Source: a virus
Strand: one strand, 5' to 3'
DNA: 22,657 nucleotides
IMG/VR virus record: IMGVR_UViG_3300044568_001189
Span: 1-22,657 of that record
Each line of letters opens with the position of its first letter. Position 1 is the stretch's first letter. Made by a program: the position numbers and the translations under genes. A model generated the notes under the pieces. The model did no database searches. It was given only the letters and a program-made list of their open reading frames with translations, and was not told the DNA's origin. This document shows positions 949 through 15,046 of this stretch, piece by piece.

Positions 949-1207
949 ACAGCTTGACTTCGCATTGATGTTAAAAGTGTTGTATATGAGGGGTCATACA
1001 TTATCTGATATAGCTAGAAAGACAGGTACATCAGTAAATACATTATCAACAGCAAAACAAGAAACTAAAGCCCCACCAGCAGGATGGTTAGAAGGCATCG
1101 CGATGCTGGATTATTGGCTTAAAGCGACAGGCGAACCCCCACCACGAATAGGTGATTACATTGAACTTGGAGAATATTATGAAGATGAAATATCCACTAC
1201 CGAATGA
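941..1207 (+). CDS. small helix-turn-helix protein, 88 aa
   Basis: The start is ATG 941, five bases after AGGGG (931-935); an in-frame ATG at 917 lacks a clear ribosome binding site and would lengthen the overlap with the preceding gene. Residues 7-40 (ALMLKVLYMRGHTLSDIA, then GTSVNTLS) fit a helix-turn-helix in which 'LSDIARKTGTS' is the first helix and turn. The C-terminal part, GWLEGIAMLDYW followed by EPPPRIG, resembles small phage proteins that pair an HTH with a short helical tail. It is probably a DNA-binding regulator in the early operon, though operator and target are unknown. It overlaps its upstream neighbour, the AlpA-like gene, by eight bases. Confidence 0.6.
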   Translation: MNRQLDFALMLKVLYMRGHTLSDIARKTGTSVNTLSTAKQETKAPPAGWLEGIAMLDYWLKATGEPPPRIGDYIELGEYYEDEISTTE

Positions 1208-1379
1208 AAATGCCAGATGTCTTGGTAGCAACTGCGACAAAAAAGAAAACTGCTCCAGATACTTAAGTATTGAGATCGACACCAAAGATTACATGTGGCA
1301 CGGTGACTTCAAGAAAGAACTTAAACAAATGGAATGTGACCTTTTTATTGATTTTCGAGGCAATTACTATGAGCATTGA
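1179..1379 (+). CDS. small Cys-motif (possible zinc-binding) protein, 66 aa
   Basis: The start is ATG 1179 with GGAG at 1169-1172; an upstream in-frame GTG at 1152 is inside the previous gene and lacks a ribosome binding site. The product carries CLGSNCDKKENCSRY (residues about 14-28), a C-x4-C-x5-C-x-R-Y arrangement that recurs in small phage proteins, plus a fourth Cys near residue 53 (MECDLF). Four cysteines could bind one zinc ion or an iron-sulfur cluster; this is inference. It overlaps the upstream HTH gene by 29 bases and the next gene by 11. Function is unknown. Confidence 0.6.
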   Translation: MKMKYPLPNENARCLGSNCDKKENCSRYLSIEIDTKDYMWHGDFKKELKQMECDLFIDFRGNYYEH

Positions 1380-1758
1380 GAGAGAGTTTTTAAAAAAGCT
1401 TAGATACGCTAGCTTATTAGAAAATGATTTAAGAAAAGAACTTGAAGAACTCCTCGCCCAACCTGAGCAGACTGAGCAAGAGCCTTTTGATTGGGAAACA
1501 AAAAAGAAAAGTTATCTCGATGAAATAGATAGGTTAGGTATGGAGGCTAATAAAGATCAAGAGGAGATAGATAGATTGACAGACCTCTTGTTTTCTAAAC
1601 CTGCAACATATATTGGCAAGACGCAGTGGATGCAAGTACCTGAGCCTTTGAGTGAAAAAGATATTTGCCAGATATTAATAAAAAAAGAATGGAAAGGGTT
1701 TGTTGATTTGGTTCGTATTATAGAAAAAGCACACGGTATTGGGGAAGATGATGAGTAA
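1369..1758 (+). CDS. tandem-cassette protein 1 (LLAQPEQ / HGIG family), 129 aa
   Basis: The start is ATG 1369, eight bases after GAGG (1357-1360). This is the first of a row of related proteins. It has the N-terminal block MSIEREFLKKL, a short helix ending in ELLAQPEQ (about residues 28-35), an acidic helical middle, possibly coiled coil (residues about 48-68), and the C-terminal motif HGIGEDDE. The middle differs from copies 2 and 3: 'QEPFDW' replaces 'QEPVAW' and the 'PLY-AP' segment is absent or much changed. Proteins with 'LAQPEPEPVAW ... PLYTAPP' are common in phage early regions and have no known function. The codons for the final HGIG hold the ribosome binding site of the next gene. 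Confidence 0.6.
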   Translation: MSIEREFLKKLRYASLLENDLRKELEELLAQPEQTEQEPFDWETKKKSYLDEIDRLGMEANKDQEEIDRLTDLLFSKPATYIGKTQWMQVPEPLSEKDICQILIKKEWKGFVDLVRIIEKAHGIGEDDE

Positions 1759-1770
1759 AGAAAGAGAGTT
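1739..1770 (+). repeat. 32-base direct repeat, copy A (cassette gene junction)
   Basis: Matches 2231-2262 with one mismatch. It spans the end of one gene, the ribosome binding site, two tandem ATGs and the first codons (MSKEREL) of the next gene. Offset 492 bases. Confidence 0.85.
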
Positions 1771-2146
1771 GTTAAGACGGGTTAAGGTGTTACTGGAGTG
1801 TTCTAATATGGAACCATTGCAAGATCAAGCTGACATTATTATTAAAGAGATACAACAACTCCTCGCCCAGCCTGAGCAAGAGCAAGAACCTGTGGCTTGG
1901 AAAGTAGTAGATAGAACTACTGGAGATTTTATGTTTTCTAGGGTTAAACCAATGGGACGCTCATATAAATATGATGTGGTAATACCGCTCTACACAGCAC
2001 CAACAGCCCGAAAACATTTAACTGGCATAGAAATATCACAAGGGTTTAAAGGTGATGATGACGCTACACACCCATACAGTTATTGGGCAGGTATTAATTT
2101 TGCTGAAAAGCATCACGGTATTGGAGGTGGGAATGAACATCGTTGA
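1751..2146 (+). CDS. tandem-cassette protein 2 (LLAQPEQEPVAW / PLYTAP / HGIG family), 131 aa
   Basis: Two ATGs lie in tandem (1748 and 1751); the second is better spaced (five to six bases) from GGGGA at 1741-1745, which sits in the HGIG codons of the preceding gene. The order of motifs is MSKERELL at the start, LLAQPEQEQEPVAW at about residues 36-49, VIPLYTAPTA at about residues 76-85, a helical segment with ...SYWAGINFAEKHHGIGGG, and a short tail. This matches the full family layout. Function unknown; no catalytic motif is visible. The gene shares near-identical DNA with the copy at 2243 in its 5' end and in the QPEQ block, pointing to recent duplication or recombination. Confidence 0.65.
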   Translation: MSKERELLRRVKVLLECSNMEPLQDQADIIIKEIQQLLAQPEQEQEPVAWKVVDRTTGDFMFSRVKPMGRSYKYDVVIPLYTAPTARKHLTGIEISQGFKGDDDATHPYSYWAGINFAEKHHGIGGGNEHR

Positions 2147-2243
2147 ATGGTTTTATGTAGTTATGGCAATAGGGATAGTATGGATAGTTTTGACTGCCCC
2201 TTATTTACTTGAGAAATTAGTAAAAGCATTTTGGAGAAGATGA
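2133..2243 (+). CDS. 36-aa single-pass membrane protein
   Basis: The start is ATG 2133, five bases after a strong GGAGG (2123-2127) that lies inside the GIGGG codons of cassette protein 2. The product begins MNIVEWFYVVMAIGIVWIV (one transmembrane helix, about residues 4-24) and ends with a basic tail, EKLVKAFWRR, so the C-terminus should be cytoplasmic. Its stop overlaps the ATG of cassette protein 3 (ATGA at 2240-2243), and its last codons carry GGAG that serves that gene. Function unknown. The strong ribosome binding site and tight coupling are the reasons to treat so short an open frame as real. Confidence 0.55.
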   Translation: MNIVEWFYVVMAIGIVWIVLTAPYLLEKLVKAFWRR

Positions 2244-2262
2244 TGAGTAAAGAAAGAGAGTT
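2231..2262 (+). repeat. 32-base direct repeat, copy B (cassette gene junction)
   Basis: Partner of 1739-1770. Within the cassette a second repeat, the CTCCTCGCCCA-CCTGAGCA block, occurs at 1450, 1859 and 2324 and encodes LLAQPEQ each time. Confidence 0.85.
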
Positions 2263-2620
2263 ACTGAAGAAGGTATTAGCAACGGGGTGGCTAGATCACA
2301 CGTTAAGTTGTGAAGTAGAAACGCTCCTCGCCCAACCTGAGCAAGAGCCTGTGGCTTGGATTACAGAATGGGTACAAAGATATAGACATAACGATACTCC
2401 AATTATAGATAGAGCTGTGTCGTTTACAAAAGGGGATGCACCTGCTGCGCCAAATCCTAATTACATACCCCTCTACCTAGCACCACCAAAACGTGAGCCT
2501 TTTGGTCCTGAAGAAAGGCAAAGACTATCAAGAGCATATAGTACCGAAGCTGAACAAGTAGCTTTTGAAGAGGGTATTATTTTTGCTGAGATTTCATACG
2601 GTATTGGAGGTGGGGAATGA
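2243..2620 (+). CDS. tandem-cassette protein 3 (LLAQPEQEPVAW / PLYLAPP / HGIG family), 125 aa
   Basis: The start is the second of two tandem ATGs (2240, 2243), six bases after GGAG (2233-2236). Motifs in order: MSKERELLKKV, TLLAQPEQEPVAW (about residues 27-39), YIPLYLAPPKREPFGPEERQ (about residues 76-95) and, at the C-terminus, GIIFAEISYGIGGGE. The PLY-APPKRE-F-----E block is the most family-typical copy in this window. The last codons contain GGAGG and then overlap the next ATG (ATGA, 2617-2620). The 5' end repeats the DNA of the 1751 gene with one mismatch in 32 bases. Function unknown. Confidence 0.65.
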   Translation: MSKERELLKKVLATGWLDHTLSCEVETLLAQPEQEPVAWITEWVQRYRHNDTPIIDRAVSFTKGDAPAAPNPNYIPLYLAPPKREPFGPEERQRLSRAYSTEAEQVAFEEGIIFAEISYGIGGGE

Positions 2621-2871
2621 GTGCGGTGTTAACTAGCGCAGAACAAAATGAATTGCACGCTCTTTTAAGACAACAAGGAAGTCTAACTCAAGATGATTGT
2701 TGGGATGCTATTGAAGTATTTGAGAAGTTCTTAAAAGAAAAGCGTGAGCGTATAAATCATGATGACATATTAGATCGCTCTATAGATGGAAGTTTTGAAT
2801 ATAGAGATGGATTCATGGATGGAGTTATGTTCGCTGAAAATCATCACGGCATTGGAGAGAAAGATGAATAA
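2617..2871 (+). CDS. tandem-cassette protein 4 (HGIG-tailed), 84 aa
   Basis: The ATG at 2617 overlaps the upstream stop (ATGA) and lies six bases after GGAGG (2606-2610). This copy has a different N-terminus (MSAVLTSAEQNELHALL...) and no QPEQ/VAW block, but keeps the C-terminal module: a helical ...YRDGFMDGVMFAENHHGIGEKDE, close to the FAEKHHGIGG of cassette protein 2. It therefore looks like a mosaic: the shared C-terminal module joined to an unrelated N-terminal part. As in its neighbours, the HGIG codons provide GGAG for the next start. Acidic and soluble; function unknown. Confidence 0.6.
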   Translation: MSAVLTSAEQNELHALLRQQGSLTQDDCWDAIEVFEKFLKEKRERINHDDILDRSIDGSFEYRDGFMDGVMFAENHHGIGEKDE

Positions 2872-3133
2872 CATAAAAGAACTAACAGAACTATATGGCG
2901 TAACTGCAAAAACACCAGATAGCTTAAATATATTTATAACCGAGGTTTATAGTCATGGCTATCATGACGGCAAGGAGTTTTCATCTACACCTATATCACT
3001 ACGTGACCACTTTGCTGGCTTGGCTATGCAGGGATTGTTAGCTTCAGATATAAATACAAAATGGGATGAAAATGATATCGCTTTGATTGCTTACGGGCAA
3101 GCTGATGCAATGATGGAAAGGAGAGAGAAATAA
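2864..3133 (+). CDS. phage protein with SLRDHFAGLAMQ motif, 89 aa
   Basis: The start is ATG 2864, six bases after GGAG (2854-2857) in the HGIG codons of the preceding gene; an earlier in-frame ATG at 2786 would sit deep inside that gene. The C-terminal half, SLRDHFAGLAMQGLLAS, followed by IALIAYGQADAMMERREK, is a pattern I recognise from many small phage proteins ('SLRDYFA--AM--L---------A--AY--ADAML--R'). No activity is known to me. It is helical, without membrane segments or cysteines. It closes the coupled cassette. Confidence 0.6.
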   Translation: MNNIKELTELYGVTAKTPDSLNIFITEVYSHGYHDGKEFSSTPISLRDHFAGLAMQGLLASDINTKWDENDIALIAYGQADAMMERREK

Positions 3134-11511: not shown

Positions 11512-11988
11512 TCATACTATTCCTCTGACACGTTCAATAGCTGCGGTGTTCTGTATATTCATTTGGCATAACATTTTATGCCGTTCTTGGTTAAGTTCTT
11601 TGCGAAGCAAATAGTAGTATGCTTCTGACATAATTTCGTAATTAAACAAGTCTTTATAAGCTATTCTATACCCTTTAAGTTGAATCATCAAATCAGCCGA
11701 ATATGAAGGCATCGCTTTAAAGCCTAGCTCTGCTATTGATTTATTTATTTCATCAAAAGGACGGTCTATAATTAGCTTTTTAGCAGAGTGTAGGTTAAGT
11801 TCATCCACTCTAATAAACGCACTGGTTTCAGCAATCCCTAAAGTCCCGTTATATTCCATCGCATCTATATCAGTCGTATGGTATTCCATAGCTGATTCAT
11901 GAATACAAAGCGAACTATCAGTCGTTAAAAGATTAGCGACCCATGCTGTTCCCGATCTAGGTAATCCTAGCACCATAAAGTCGATCAT
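11512..11988 (-). CDS. sulfotransferase-like P-loop protein, 158 aa
   Basis: From ATG 11988 the protein starts MIDFMVLGLPRSGTAWVANL: a beta strand and P-loop G8-L-P-R-S-G-T14-x-W16, the 5'-phosphosulfate-binding loop of sulfotransferases. Residues 71-85 (KLIIDRPFDEINKSI) hold R76 and S84, the same R-x7-S spacing as the 3'-phosphate-binding motif of sulfotransferases that use PAPS. At 158 residues it is much shorter than typical enzymes (250 or more), and no sure catalytic His can be assigned (H30 is a candidate). Similar proteins occur among phage structural genes; their role is unknown. Options are sulfation of a virion or host glycan, or a nucleotide-binding protein without transferase activity. 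The start overlaps the upstream stop (ATGA). A TTG at 11994 would add two residues and is less likely. Confidence 0.7.
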   Translation of the reverse strand: MIDFMVLGLPRSGTAWVANLLTTDSSLCIHESAMEYHTTDIDAMEYNGTLGIAETSAFIRVDELNLHSAKKLIIDRPFDEINKSIAELGFKAMPSYSADLMIQLKGYRIAYKDLFNYEIMSEAYYYLLRKELNQERHKMLCQMNIQNTAAIERVRGIV

Positions 11989-12278
11989 AGCCAAGGTGTT
12001 CCAGATGTTAAAGCTTTACGATCTTTATAGGCTTCTAATTCTGTATCTGCTTGATCTTGCATTTCTTTTCCCACTAAATTTTGCACCCATGCAATTACAT
12101 CATCTTTAGTTAATAATTCATAAGCAATAACTTTACCTGTGGGGGCTGGTAAAGCCGTACAACCTCCAATACTAAAACTAGCATTACCATCAGAAACCTC
12201 AATAGTAAACTCTACAGCGACCACAATACCGTTTTGATCGCTGACTAGATTGATTGGATTATAAACATAGATGTTCAT
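11985..12278 (-). CDS. small virion-region protein ending in GTPWL, 97 aa
   Basis: I place the start at ATG 12278, which shares a base with the fibre stop (TAATG) and so is probably coupled; an in-frame ATG at 12296 has no ribosome binding site and would overlap the fibre gene. The product is a beta-rich N-terminal half (VVAVEFTIEVSDGNASFSIG, then GCTALPAPTGKVIAY) followed by a helix (DDVIAWVQNLVG, then EAYKDRKAL) and the end TSGTPWL. This layout, with a final G-PW, recurs in small phage proteins encoded next to tail fibres; I recall it as a domain of unknown function. It may be a fibre chaperone or minor tail component, by position only. Confidence 0.6.
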   Translation of the reverse strand: MNIYVYNPINLVSDQNGIVVAVEFTIEVSDGNASFSIGGCTALPAPTGKVIAYELLTKDDVIAWVQNLVGKEMQDQADTELEAYKDRKALTSGTPWL

Positions 12279-15046
12279 TAATAGCTCGGATACCATTTTG
12301 TTGTTGTTACATCGTAGGTCATTAATAAAGCTTTACCTACTACGGCTGTTGAAGCCAAAGCTATGTTGCCGGCTGTTGTGGTCGTAAATATTCCAGTAGG
12401 AATCAATGTAATTGTTCCCCCACCCAACGAGATAGGATTAGGCGCTGTAATGGTTACTATAGCTGTTGTGCCTGATATAAAAGTAATCGCTTTAGTAGGC
12501 GCAATCGTAGTAGCTGAAGCTATAGTTGGAGCGGCTGCTGAAGTAGCTTTTAACCCTGCAACGACTATATTGTTAGATGTTGTTGGCTGAGTTGTTGTGC
12601 CAAGAAGTAAATTCCCTGCTAAATAATTAGCAGCTGTACCGTTCATGTACAGATTCCAACGGCCTGCAGCTGAAGCTATATTACCATAAAATCCATAATT
12701 GTTGGTTGCGCCTGTAATAGTGGCAGAAGCGCTAAAGCCATATTGATTTGTTACGGTTGAATCAGCGTTAAAAGCGCCTTGCGCTGCATTAAAACAAGTT
12801 AATGCAGCGATTGTGTATGGTGTACCGCCATTGGCAGCTGTAGCCGCTTGAGAATTAACAATAAGAGCATTTACCGTTACATCAGGTTGAACTGTGACGG
12901 AAACAAGGACTCCAAACGCCCCCGTTGCACCTGTCATGCTTCCTGCAACAGCTAATCGTCTAGCTGTTAATGATGTCGTACCTATGCCTAACGCACCAGC
13001 GACGTAATTGTTGGCTGTACCGTTCATGTACAGATTCCAACGCCCAGTGCTTGACGCTATATTGCCATAAAATCCGTAATTGTTGGTTGCGCCTATTAAA
13101 CTTGAAGAAACATTAAACCCATACGAATTTGTGCCTGATCCTGCCGAACCATTAATTACGCTATTCCCATCGTATGTAAGTGCTGACCCTGTGGCTAACG
13201 CGCTTGAACTACTGGCATAAACAACACCATTGGCAGTAAATGAACTTAAGCCTGTTCCACCATTAGCACCAACTAATATTCCATCAAGTGTAATTGCCCC
13301 TGTAGTTGCTGTAGCAGGAGTTAATCCTGTAGAATTTCCTGAAAAAGATGTAACGCCATTAGAGCCTTGAATACCTGCTACAGATATAGTCCAGTTTGCA
13401 TAAGTACCAGAACCGCCAATAGAATCAACATTGACTACTAAAGTTGTACCGCTGAAAGATGTAATTACACCTTCCATATAATTAGCAGGTGTAGTGACAT
13501 AAGCCACTCTAATTCTAGTTCCTATTGTAAAAGCCGTTGAAATATTAGAAAGGTTTGTAGTAAATGTTTTTGATCCTGTTGCAATAACTACAGAAGAAAC
13601 GGACGTTAAATTGTAATAGCCAATTCCAACTTCAGTAATAGGCGTTACAGTTACAATAACTCCTGGTGTTCTAGGAACTGTTGGGCTTGAAGTTGCTGGC
13701 AATGTTGCAATTGAAATATCAACGTCACTAACAGCCCACATTAATTGGACATAATCTCCAGCGGCTAAAGACAGCACATAATTTACAGCTGCAATTAACT
13801 CCCCATTAACAGTTGAATTTTTTGAAGCTATCCAATATGTACTATTACTATCGGAAATATCTACGCCATTTAATCGAAACCATACATCTACATTATAATT
13901 TTTATTCCCCGTTCCAATATTTTCAAATTGTATGGAATATTGAATATTATATACGCCAGCATATGCAACTGTAATTCTATTACTGCTAGCTATACTAACA
14001 CCATTATTATTAGGGTCAGAAGTACCAATATTAATTGTGTAAGCTACAGTTGTACTGGCGGCAGTTTGATTAGTTGTATCCCAGAACGATCCCCAATATC
14101 CTGTTGTACCAATACCTGTCGCTACAGTTGCCCAAGTAGGCACTGTTGAGCCATTAGATGTTAAAACTTGACCTGCTGATCCTGCTGCGGTAAATGCGTA
14201 TTGAGTTCCGTTACCAACAGCAACAGCGCCTGCTGTGGGTGTAGCTGTACCATTTGTACCGCCATTGGCAATAGGTAGCGTTCCAGTAAAAGTGATATTG
14301 GGTGTTGTTCCACCGCTAGAAGCAATATTTCCACTTCCGGTAACAGCAGTAACCGTTCCGCCTGATCCAGTAGCACTTAACGTTCCAGCTACAAATGTAA
14401 CTCCACTTCCAATCGTTACATTACTAAATCCCCCAGTACCATCACCATATAATATTGATGTTCCTGACGTTGCTGGTGCTTTACTATTAAAAGTATTCCA
14501 ATCGATCGAAGATAAATATCCATCAGTAGCAGTTCCAGCTTGACTAATACTAATTGCAGGAGTATTACCGCCTGATGATGCAATAGGGGCAGTTCCTGTT
14601 ACAGCAGTAACCGTTCCGCCTGATCCAGTTGCAGATAAAACACCGCCTGCAAAAGTAACGCCAGAACCGATAGCAACTGAACTGAATCCGCCAGCGCCAT
14701 TACCATACAAAATTGCATTGCCTGATGTTGCAGGAGCAAAATCAACGCCTGCGACAGCGTTATTAAACCCACCTGTACCGTTGCCTTTTAAAATACTGGT
14801 TCCAGTCGTAGATGGGGCATAAGTTACCCAAATGACACCGTTCCAATATACCATTTGGTCTATTGTCGTATCAAAATAAGGATACCCTATAAAAAGATTT
14901 TGAGTGGGTCTGCCTGACGTAGGGCCACTTGCTACAACAGATTGTAGAATAGGTTGCAATTGGCTAAACCATTGCGCCCACGGTGTTTGCACTCGATCAT
15001 CAGCGTCAACTAGAGTAGACTGGAATGGGGGTTGAGAAATAGCCAT
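12278..15046 (-). CDS. long tail fibre protein with internal repeats, 922 aa
   Basis: Fibre-like virion protein. The N-terminal 75 residues (MAISQPPFQSTLVDADD, then TPWAQWFSQL, then PTSGRPTQNLFIGYPYFDTT, then WNGVIWV) match a docking module common in podoviral tail proteins. The body is Gly/Ser/Thr/Ala-rich beta structure with almost no charge or Cys, including two copies of a 58-residue repeat (residues 106-163 and 192-249) and two copies of a NNYGFYGNIAS-GRWNLYMNG segment. The C-terminus has GTITLIPTGIFTTTTAGNIA and ends KWYPSY. No peptidase chaperone motif is visible. It occupies the slot of the P22 tail needle gene, between gp10-like and gp7-like, but is far longer and not coiled coil. 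The start overlaps the gp10-like stop (TAATG). Its composition fits a trimeric fibre. Confidence 0.75.
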   Translation of the reverse strand: MAISQPPFQSTLVDADDRVQTPWAQWFSQLQPILQSVVASGPTSGRPTQNLFIGYPYFDTTIDQMVYWNGVIWVTYAPSTTGTSILKGNGTGGFNNAVAGVDFAPATSGNAILYGNGAGGFSSVAIGSGVTFAGGVLSATGSGGTVTAVTGTAPIASSGGNTPAISISQAGTATDGYLSSIDWNTFNSKAPATSGTSILYGDGTGGFSNVTIGSGVTFVAGTLSATGSGGTVTAVTGSGNIASSGGTTPNITFTGTLPIANGGTNGTATPTAGAVAVGNGTQYAFTAAGSAGQVLTSNGSTVPTWATVATGIGTTGYWGSFWDTTNQTAASTTVAYTINIGTSDPNNNGVSIASSNRITVAYAGVYNIQYSIQFENIGTGNKNYNVDVWFRLNGVDISDSNSTYWIASKNSTVNGELIAAVNYVLSLAAGDYVQLMWAVSDVDISIATLPATSSPTVPRTPGVIVTVTPITEVGIGYYNLTSVSSVVIATGSKTFTTNLSNISTAFTIGTRIRVAYVTTPANYMEGVITSFSGTTLVVNVDSIGGSGTYANWTISVAGIQGSNGVTSFSGNSTGLTPATATTGAITLDGILVGANGGTGLSSFTANGVVYASSSSALATGSALTYDGNSVINGSAGSGTNSYGFNVSSSLIGATNNYGFYGNIASSTGRWNLYMNGTANNYVAGALGIGTTSLTARRLAVAGSMTGATGAFGVLVSVTVQPDVTVNALIVNSQAATAANGGTPYTIAALTCFNAAQGAFNADSTVTNQYGFSASATITGATNNYGFYGNIASAAGRWNLYMNGTAANYLAGNLLLGTTTQPTTSNNIVVAGLKATSAAAPTIASATTIAPTKAITFISGTTAIVTITAPNPISLGGGTITLIPTGIFTTTTAGNIALASTAVVGKALLMTYDVTTTKWYPSY
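12633..12713 (-). repeat. 81-base direct repeat, copy A (within fibre gene)
   Basis: This copy and 13014-13094 align without gaps over 81 bases and encode the NNYGFYGNIAS-GRWNLYMNGTA segment twice in the fibre. The offset is 381 bases. Differences are few and mostly synonymous, which suggests a duplication kept in register by selection or recent recombination. Confidence 0.75.
13014..13094 (-). repeat. 81-base direct repeat, copy B (within fibre gene)
   Basis: Partner of 12633-12713, nearest the fibre N-terminus of the two. Both copies include the long shared run around GTTCATGTACAGATTCCAAC and end in the shared GTTGGTTGCGCCT. Confidence 0.75.
14300..14473 (-). repeat. 174-base coding repeat, second copy (fibre residues 192-249)
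   Basis: Encodes ATSGTSILYGDGTGGFSNVT, then IGSGVTFVAGTLSATGSGGT, then VTAVTG and a SSGG-TP ending. It aligns with the copy at 14558-14731 over 58 residues at an offset of 258 bases, with conserved lengths. Confidence 0.7.
14558..14731 (-). repeat. 174-base coding repeat, first copy (fibre residues 106-163)
   Basis: Encodes ATSGNAILYGNGAGGFSSVA, then IGSGVTFAGGVLSATGSGGT, then VTAVTG and a SSGG-TP ending. Partner of 14300-14473. A third, partial version (GTSILKGNGTGGFNNAVAGV at residues 82-101) lies just upstream of it. Confidence 0.7.

Follow-up and report, generated by a model that had tools for sequence, protein, structure and literature searches.

The window, by which the whole 22.7-kb virus record analysed here is meant (22,657 nt), carries six overlapping genes on the plus strand at 1369–3133, as read directly from the sequence, and these are preceded by a further gene:

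1180–1379, plus strand: gene MKMKYPLPNENARCLGSNC..., which precedes the array
1369–1758, plus strand: cassette gene 1, 129 aa, C-terminus KAHGIGEDDE (open reading frame and repeats)
1732–1758, plus strand: junction 1, HGI codons, GGGGA Shine-Dalgarno (SD) sequence (1741–1745) and ATG 1748/1751 overlapping TAA (sequence)
1739–1770 and 2231–2262, plus strand: repeat D5, 32 nt, 97% identical, comprising SD, start and MSKEREL
1751–2146, plus strand: cassette gene 2, 131 aa, MSKEREL...LLAQPEQEQEPVAW...PLYTAP...HHGIGGGNEHR (open reading frame; fold model with coil tail)
2114–2146, plus strand: junction 2, HGI codons, GGAGG SD (2123–2127) and ATG 2133 (sequence)
2133–2243, plus strand: 36-aa membrane-type ORF MNIVEWFYVVMAIGIVWIVLTAPYLLEKLVKAFWRR, docked at junction 2 and ending in FWRR before the stop (sequence)
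2243–2620, plus strand: cassette gene 3, 125 aa, C-terminus SYGIGGGE (open reading frame)
2321–2364, and also about 1450–1490 and 1858–1899, plus strand: linker LLAQPEQEPVAW (repeats D2/D3, codon table)
2597–2620, plus strand: junction 3, YGI codons, GGAGG SD (2606–2610) and ATG 2617, with ATGA overlap (sequence)
2617–2871, plus strand: cassette gene 4, 84 aa, C-terminus HHGIGEKDE (open reading frame)
2845–2871, plus strand: junction 4, HGI codons, GGAGA SD (2854–2858) and ATG 2864 (sequence)
2864–3133, plus strand: docked gene 5, 89 aa, ...SLRDHFAGLAMQGLL...ADAMMERREK, matching phrog_2201 (E 8e-10)

The initial annotation had reported [HY]GIG-type ends for the proteins starting at 1369, 1751, 2243 and 2617, and direct reading of the sequence confirms this together with two further statements, namely that the codons after Ile form GGGGA, GGAGG, GGAGG and GGAGA at 5, 5, 6 and 5 bases ahead of the ATG of junctions 1–4 and that the stop overlaps the next start in all four cases (by 8, 14, 4 and 8 nt). 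The tail HGIGEDDE of gene 1 is written CAC GGT ATT GGG GAA GAT GAT GAG TAA (1732–1758), and GGA GGT GGG stands at 2123–2131 in the tail of gene 2. The description of the four proteins as lying in a row overlooked the 36-aa ORF between genes 2 and 3 (2133–2243), which also embeds an SD (GGAGAAG, 2233–2239), and gene 5 (2864–3133) carries a second SD-bearing C-terminal motif, encoded by GAA AGG AGA GAG. Repeat families D1–D5 link the cassette genes of the window; the upstream half of D5 encodes IGEDDE and a stop at 1739–1770 and, in another frame, FWRR and a stop at 2231–2262, and since the copies are read in two frames the joint is conserved at the DNA level even where the peptide is not.

Cassette genes 1–4 have no accepted-threshold match in Pfam, PHROGs or NCBIfam, and phrog_60 matches them weakly (E 0.02–0.03, with 8e-5 as the best value among relatives). 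An annotated phage collection gave remote matches only, with one useful case, DSL-LC05, and nearly all matches of a Foldseek search against viral models were uncharacterised phage proteins with TM <0.4, from which no function emerged. A scan of 257 Gb of genomes for the tail returned 53 matches over many phyla, which are read as mostly chance. Relatives were collected from IMG/VR contigs (loci with the prefix L below): 70 loci came from peptide patterns outside the tail, at least 100 stretches from the codon-neutral pattern FAExxHGIG, a search that required HGIG and was the source of most tails, and 91 stretches, among the matches listed, from a search with junction DNA. Genes were called with a home-made caller, and pairs of loci are not independent of each other.

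Among the matches listed, the glycine of Ile-Gly is encoded by GGA in 124 of 138 tails, the neighbouring glycine of His-Gly in only 4 of 161 core tails and glycines upstream in the relatives in 250 of 917 cases (Fisher p 7e-62 for Ile-Gly against His-Gly and 2e-46 against upstream Gly). Synonymous resampling, with codons drawn from the contigs' own usage and scored by anti-SD match, gave 3.86 ± 0.13 for the 104 low-GC tails against 5.40 observed (about 12 s.d.) and 3.64 ± 0.31 for the 22 high-GC tails against 5.14 observed (about 5 s.d.), again among the matches listed. The same SD role falls to another peptide, HGIKEKNT (AAG GAG AAG AAC ACA TGA), in the high-GC phages. An open next start lies within −14 to +20 nt of the stop in 152 of the 161 core tails among the matches listed. 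Of the tail junctions, 93% fall within −25 to +15 nt compared to 73% of other junctions on the same contigs, and 86% compared to 56% overlap the next gene. By these counts the tail/SD arrangement exceeds chance, and selection of the codons after Ile as an SD is supported. Translational coupling across the tail junctions is probable, as they have the stop–start overlap with an SD that characterises coupled gene pairs.

The initial annotation had gone further and proposed that the peptide motif may be maintained by selection on the embedded SD. Codon bias and resampling favour this for the codons after Ile and not for the HGIG peptide as a whole, because HGI precedes the SD, varies freely at its third codon positions (CAC/CAT, GGC/GGT/GGG, ATT/ATA/ATC) and persists without the SD: L258 ends in HGIT about 40 nt ahead of the next start with no SD in the post-Ile codons, L172 reads ATC GGC GAC after HG with the SD located further on, and L177 has the tail HGIANEP with no SD in the codons after Ile. 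Conversely, the residues after Ile vary (GGGE, VDDE, KEKNT, EKDE) while the SD stays, and the SD is also kept where HGI is not. In L293/L305 a one-base difference puts the junction into another frame (KLTVLEVGNE before the stop) with SD and next ATG intact, the junction of L008 is out of frame (HWSR before the stop), that of L025/L278 follows a stop and is untranslated, KL replaces HGI in L384, DSL-LC05 ends in AKLKEKNT, and further tails read HSIGVDDEN, HDIGGKE and HSIKE, all with the SD retained. HGI and the SD thus behave as two separate layers. As for tails kept with no coupled gene, L258 is the one clear case among the relatives and candidates inspected; in several others that seemed uncoupled, the tail proved to precede a very short ORF (for example MSENIVC..., about 20 aa), a contig end or a missed start.

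What HGI itself may do is suggested by the fold model of the protein encoded at 1751–2143, in which the last helix (residues 108–121) is followed by H122-G123-I124 and then by a coil tail with pLDDT 44–68. The order helix, Gly, hydrophobic residue corresponds to the classical C-cap (Schellman) motif. Given this Schellman-like order, we infer from the model that HGI caps the last helix and that the remaining tail is free coding space.

The genes that meet at tail junctions change partners frequently. Among the matches listed, 7 different successors follow the 8 members of one upstream cluster and 7 follow the 7 members of another, the 8 members of one downstream cluster have 7 predecessors between them, and the genes downstream of tails fall into at least 109 clusters. 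At 60–75, 75–90 and ≥90% identity of the upstream gene, 8, 17 and 23% of pairs share the next gene at tail junctions, compared to 33, 46 and 70% at the remaining junctions on these contigs and 28, 46 and 59% at junctions that lie close to the arrays and carry no tail. When each upstream family is counted once, the contrast is weaker but kept, with 12, 20 and 56% at tail junctions against 38, 58 and 75% at others (60–80, 80–95 and ≥95% identity; p 0.036, 0.018 and 0.053), the difference at ≥95% identity being marginal. Gene order is thus evidently less stable at tail junctions than elsewhere.

Where two loci have the upstream gene alone in common, their identity is about 80% as far as HGI and about 90% over HGI and falls to background some 36 nt on, and otherwise unrelated pairs match at 80–86% over 12 nt from CAC, a value inflated by the selection of tails for HGI. 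Homology thus appears confined to the boundary with different genes beyond, as is expected of phage boundary sequences, and we infer recombination at the joints, either homologous or over short homologies. Cassette gain or loss can be followed most clearly between L270 (A directly before C) and L154 (an insert between A and C), which have in common the gene C junction ggcattggaggtgRggaagaATGAAAATG, while the tail of gene A varies with the next gene (HGIGGEEE in L270, HGIRGGK in L154). A strict tie of the tail to one gene, be it the upstream or the downstream one, found no statistical support: the identity of the tail after HGI is 11% where only the upstream and 20% where only the downstream gene is shared. 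Because identity is low both ways, the statement that the tail goes with the downstream gene is backed by individual cases and a slight excess. The earlier view of each gene with its tail as a stackable unit therefore stands insofar as cassettes are gained, lost and reshuffled, but the unit is better taken as a gene plus the SD before it. A NUMOD4/HNH endonuclease sequence lies inside a tail-family protein (L109:13771–14619), so the shuffling may also involve endonucleases of the homing type.

The tail is evidently also grafted onto unrelated proteins, among them a Dam methylase and a membrane peptide. The Dam methylase of L133/L304 (PF05869, E 4e-31; phrog_111) ends in VIIIK-AHGIGGE, whereas the 95% identical Dam of L306 ends in VIIKPI with no tail and the remaining Dam relatives that were inspected also lack it and terminate close to this point. 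A homologue of the 36-aa membrane ORF of the window ends in NGIGGGE in L251, and homologues of the gene at 1180–1379 lie directly behind an HGI junction in L150, L154, L250 and L270. Further proteins found behind the junction include RusA, nucleoside deoxyribosyltransferase-like (Nuc_deoxyri_tr2), HNH/AP2 and ExoX-like proteins. Remnants of the Dam 3' end (SAVIIIK) are seen in L259, L293, L338 and L350 fused behind PLYTAPP or read in other contexts and may be scars of recombination at the joint. L077, L079, L127, L248 and L284 share a hydrophobic mini-ORF of about 20 aa, MS(S)ENIVC.SL..., which is placed immediately after the junction.

Joints of a similar kind may also lie inside genes. The DNA of the LLAQPEQEPVAW linker is almost invariant between otherwise different genes and uses rare codons (CTC and GCC, 5% and 11% of their amino acid in these contigs), which suggests crossovers within genes as well; as this linker has no SD role and is nevertheless codon-invariant, part of the DNA conservation would reflect recent recombination rather than SD selection. 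In a small sample of eight protein pairs with a relationship in at least one of three segments, seven pairs are related in one segment only. A C-terminal motif unrelated to the HGIG tail, ADAMLAEREK (window 3110–3133; for example L004, L013, L016, L089 and L257), embeds the SD GAG AGG GAG AAA before an overlapping start, and its Arg codon is AGG in 41 of 56 cases compared to 37 of 276 upstream (p 1e-18; relatives, among the matches listed), so that SD-bearing C-termini are a general habit of these arrays.

Taken together, the shared C-terminal tail is probably (roughly 75%) a gene junction that is both portable and dual-coding and lies in a hyper-mosaic small-gene block of water-borne phages. 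The junction, consisting of HGI end, SD and overlapping start (CACGGYATTGGAGGTGGGGAATGA or ...AAGGAGAAGAACACATGA), seems best described as part of the next gene no less than of the protein that it ends. The His-Gly-Ile codons would close the upstream protein, probably by capping its last helix, and the next codons, structurally free, would be written as the SD (ATT GGA GGT or AAG GAG), with the next start overlapping the stop (ATGA and variants) 5–8 nt after it, so that a ribosome ending one protein would be placed at the start of the next. Crossovers in the junction DNA would swap genes with the ribosome binding site retained, as this DNA is common to many cassettes, and a new neighbour would set the last residues of the upstream protein.

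The pattern could also arise from gene packing, in which overlapped C-termini are written in purine codons, HGIG marks an ordinary paralogous family and the shuffling is nothing special. The 73% of other junctions on the same contigs that also lie within −25 to +15 nt and the same codon effect in the unrelated ADAMLAEREK motif (AGG in 41/56 vs 37/276) agree with it, as do SDs inside upstream coding sequence, which have been described genome-wide (PMC2784483), but packing leaves unexplained the Dam graft, the untranslated L025/L278 copy, the out-of-frame copies and the lower conservation of neighbours at tail junctions, and we consider it improbable. A somewhat weaker case can be made for the tail as a functional peptide, for instance a binding or degradation tag, with the SD incidental: HGI is kept with varied synonymous codons, also in distant high-GC phages, and occurs without the SD in L258, yet adjacent Gly residues differ in codon choice, the post-Ile residues vary while the SD stays, the frame change in L293/L305 loses the tail and keeps the SD, and the tail is low-confidence coil in the fold model. 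Least likely of all appears a history in which one gene was merely duplicated in tandem and its copies diverged, tail and linkers evolving slowest. This would account for the N-terminus, linker and tail common to window genes 1–3 but not for bodies that are mostly unrelated between the shared blocks, homologous segments that are combined differently from phage to phage and tails on unrelated genes.

Beyond the portable junction, a broader and distinctly tentative reading is a specialised gene-assembly region in which bodies and protein segments are continuously recombined between a few fixed DNA joints, namely the start ATGAGTAAAGAAAGAGAG, the linkers LLAQPEQEPVAW and PLYTAPPKREPL and the HGI+SD end, each product being automatically translated and coupled. 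If true, it would let small proteins, which may be directed at the host, diversify rapidly through new combinations.

The closest known parallels each share part of this arrangement. The Start-Associated Sequences (SAS/ESAS repeats) of cluster K mycobacteriophages stand directly before many unrelated starts, contain an SD core, are conserved beyond the need for 16S rRNA pairing and can include the upstream stop (PMC3203893). The junction resembles SAS in its conservation upstream of many unrelated starts and in an SD core with conservation reaching beyond it, but it occurs in different phages, has a different sequence lacking the SAS consensus 5'-GGGATAGGAGCCC (PMC3203893) and is mostly coding, giving the upstream protein a fixed tail, whereas no shared C-terminal peptide is described for SAS; the junction would thus work like SAS without being SAS. 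In phage Island3, gp67 and gp68 have a common 60-bp 3' end with 18 shared C-terminal residues, and short conserved boundary sequences are regarded as recombination points between phage modules (PMC3029335). Shared 3' ends giving similar C-termini on different proteins and explaining gene gain and loss are found here too, but Island3 concerns one gene pair, while the present junction recurs over many contigs and includes the SD and start of the next gene. Stop–start overlap of co-directed genes also occurs in pairs coupled by termination–reinitiation at ATGA/TGATG (PMC6728339; PMC12548453), where it is found in genomes generally and involves neither a conserved peptide nor a mobile junction. 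Genome statistics likewise include SDs that lie within the end of the preceding gene, but with neither a single conserved tail nor shuffling (PMC2784483). Searches of the open-licence literature found no shuffling joint that unites a conserved peptide end with an SD and a start.

The usual explanation of phage mosaicism is illegitimate exchange followed by selection, since homologies at the boundaries can seldom be seen (PMC3029335). In the present arrays the boundary can be seen, recurs and carries both a protein end and the next start signal, so that shuffled genes would stay expressible, and it offers a testable case of a junction design letting phages trade genes. For annotation it is a warning that conservation of a C-terminal peptide may result from the ribosome binding site of the neighbouring gene and not reflect a function of the protein. 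Elsewhere in the window, on the minus strand, an ORF at 11512–11994 starting MAMIDFMVLGLPRSGTAWVANLL resembles, by eye only, the start of a P-loop sulfotransferase, and a 922-aa ORF at 12278–15046 has internal repeats of the type TSGNAILYGNGAGGFSSVAIGSGVTF.
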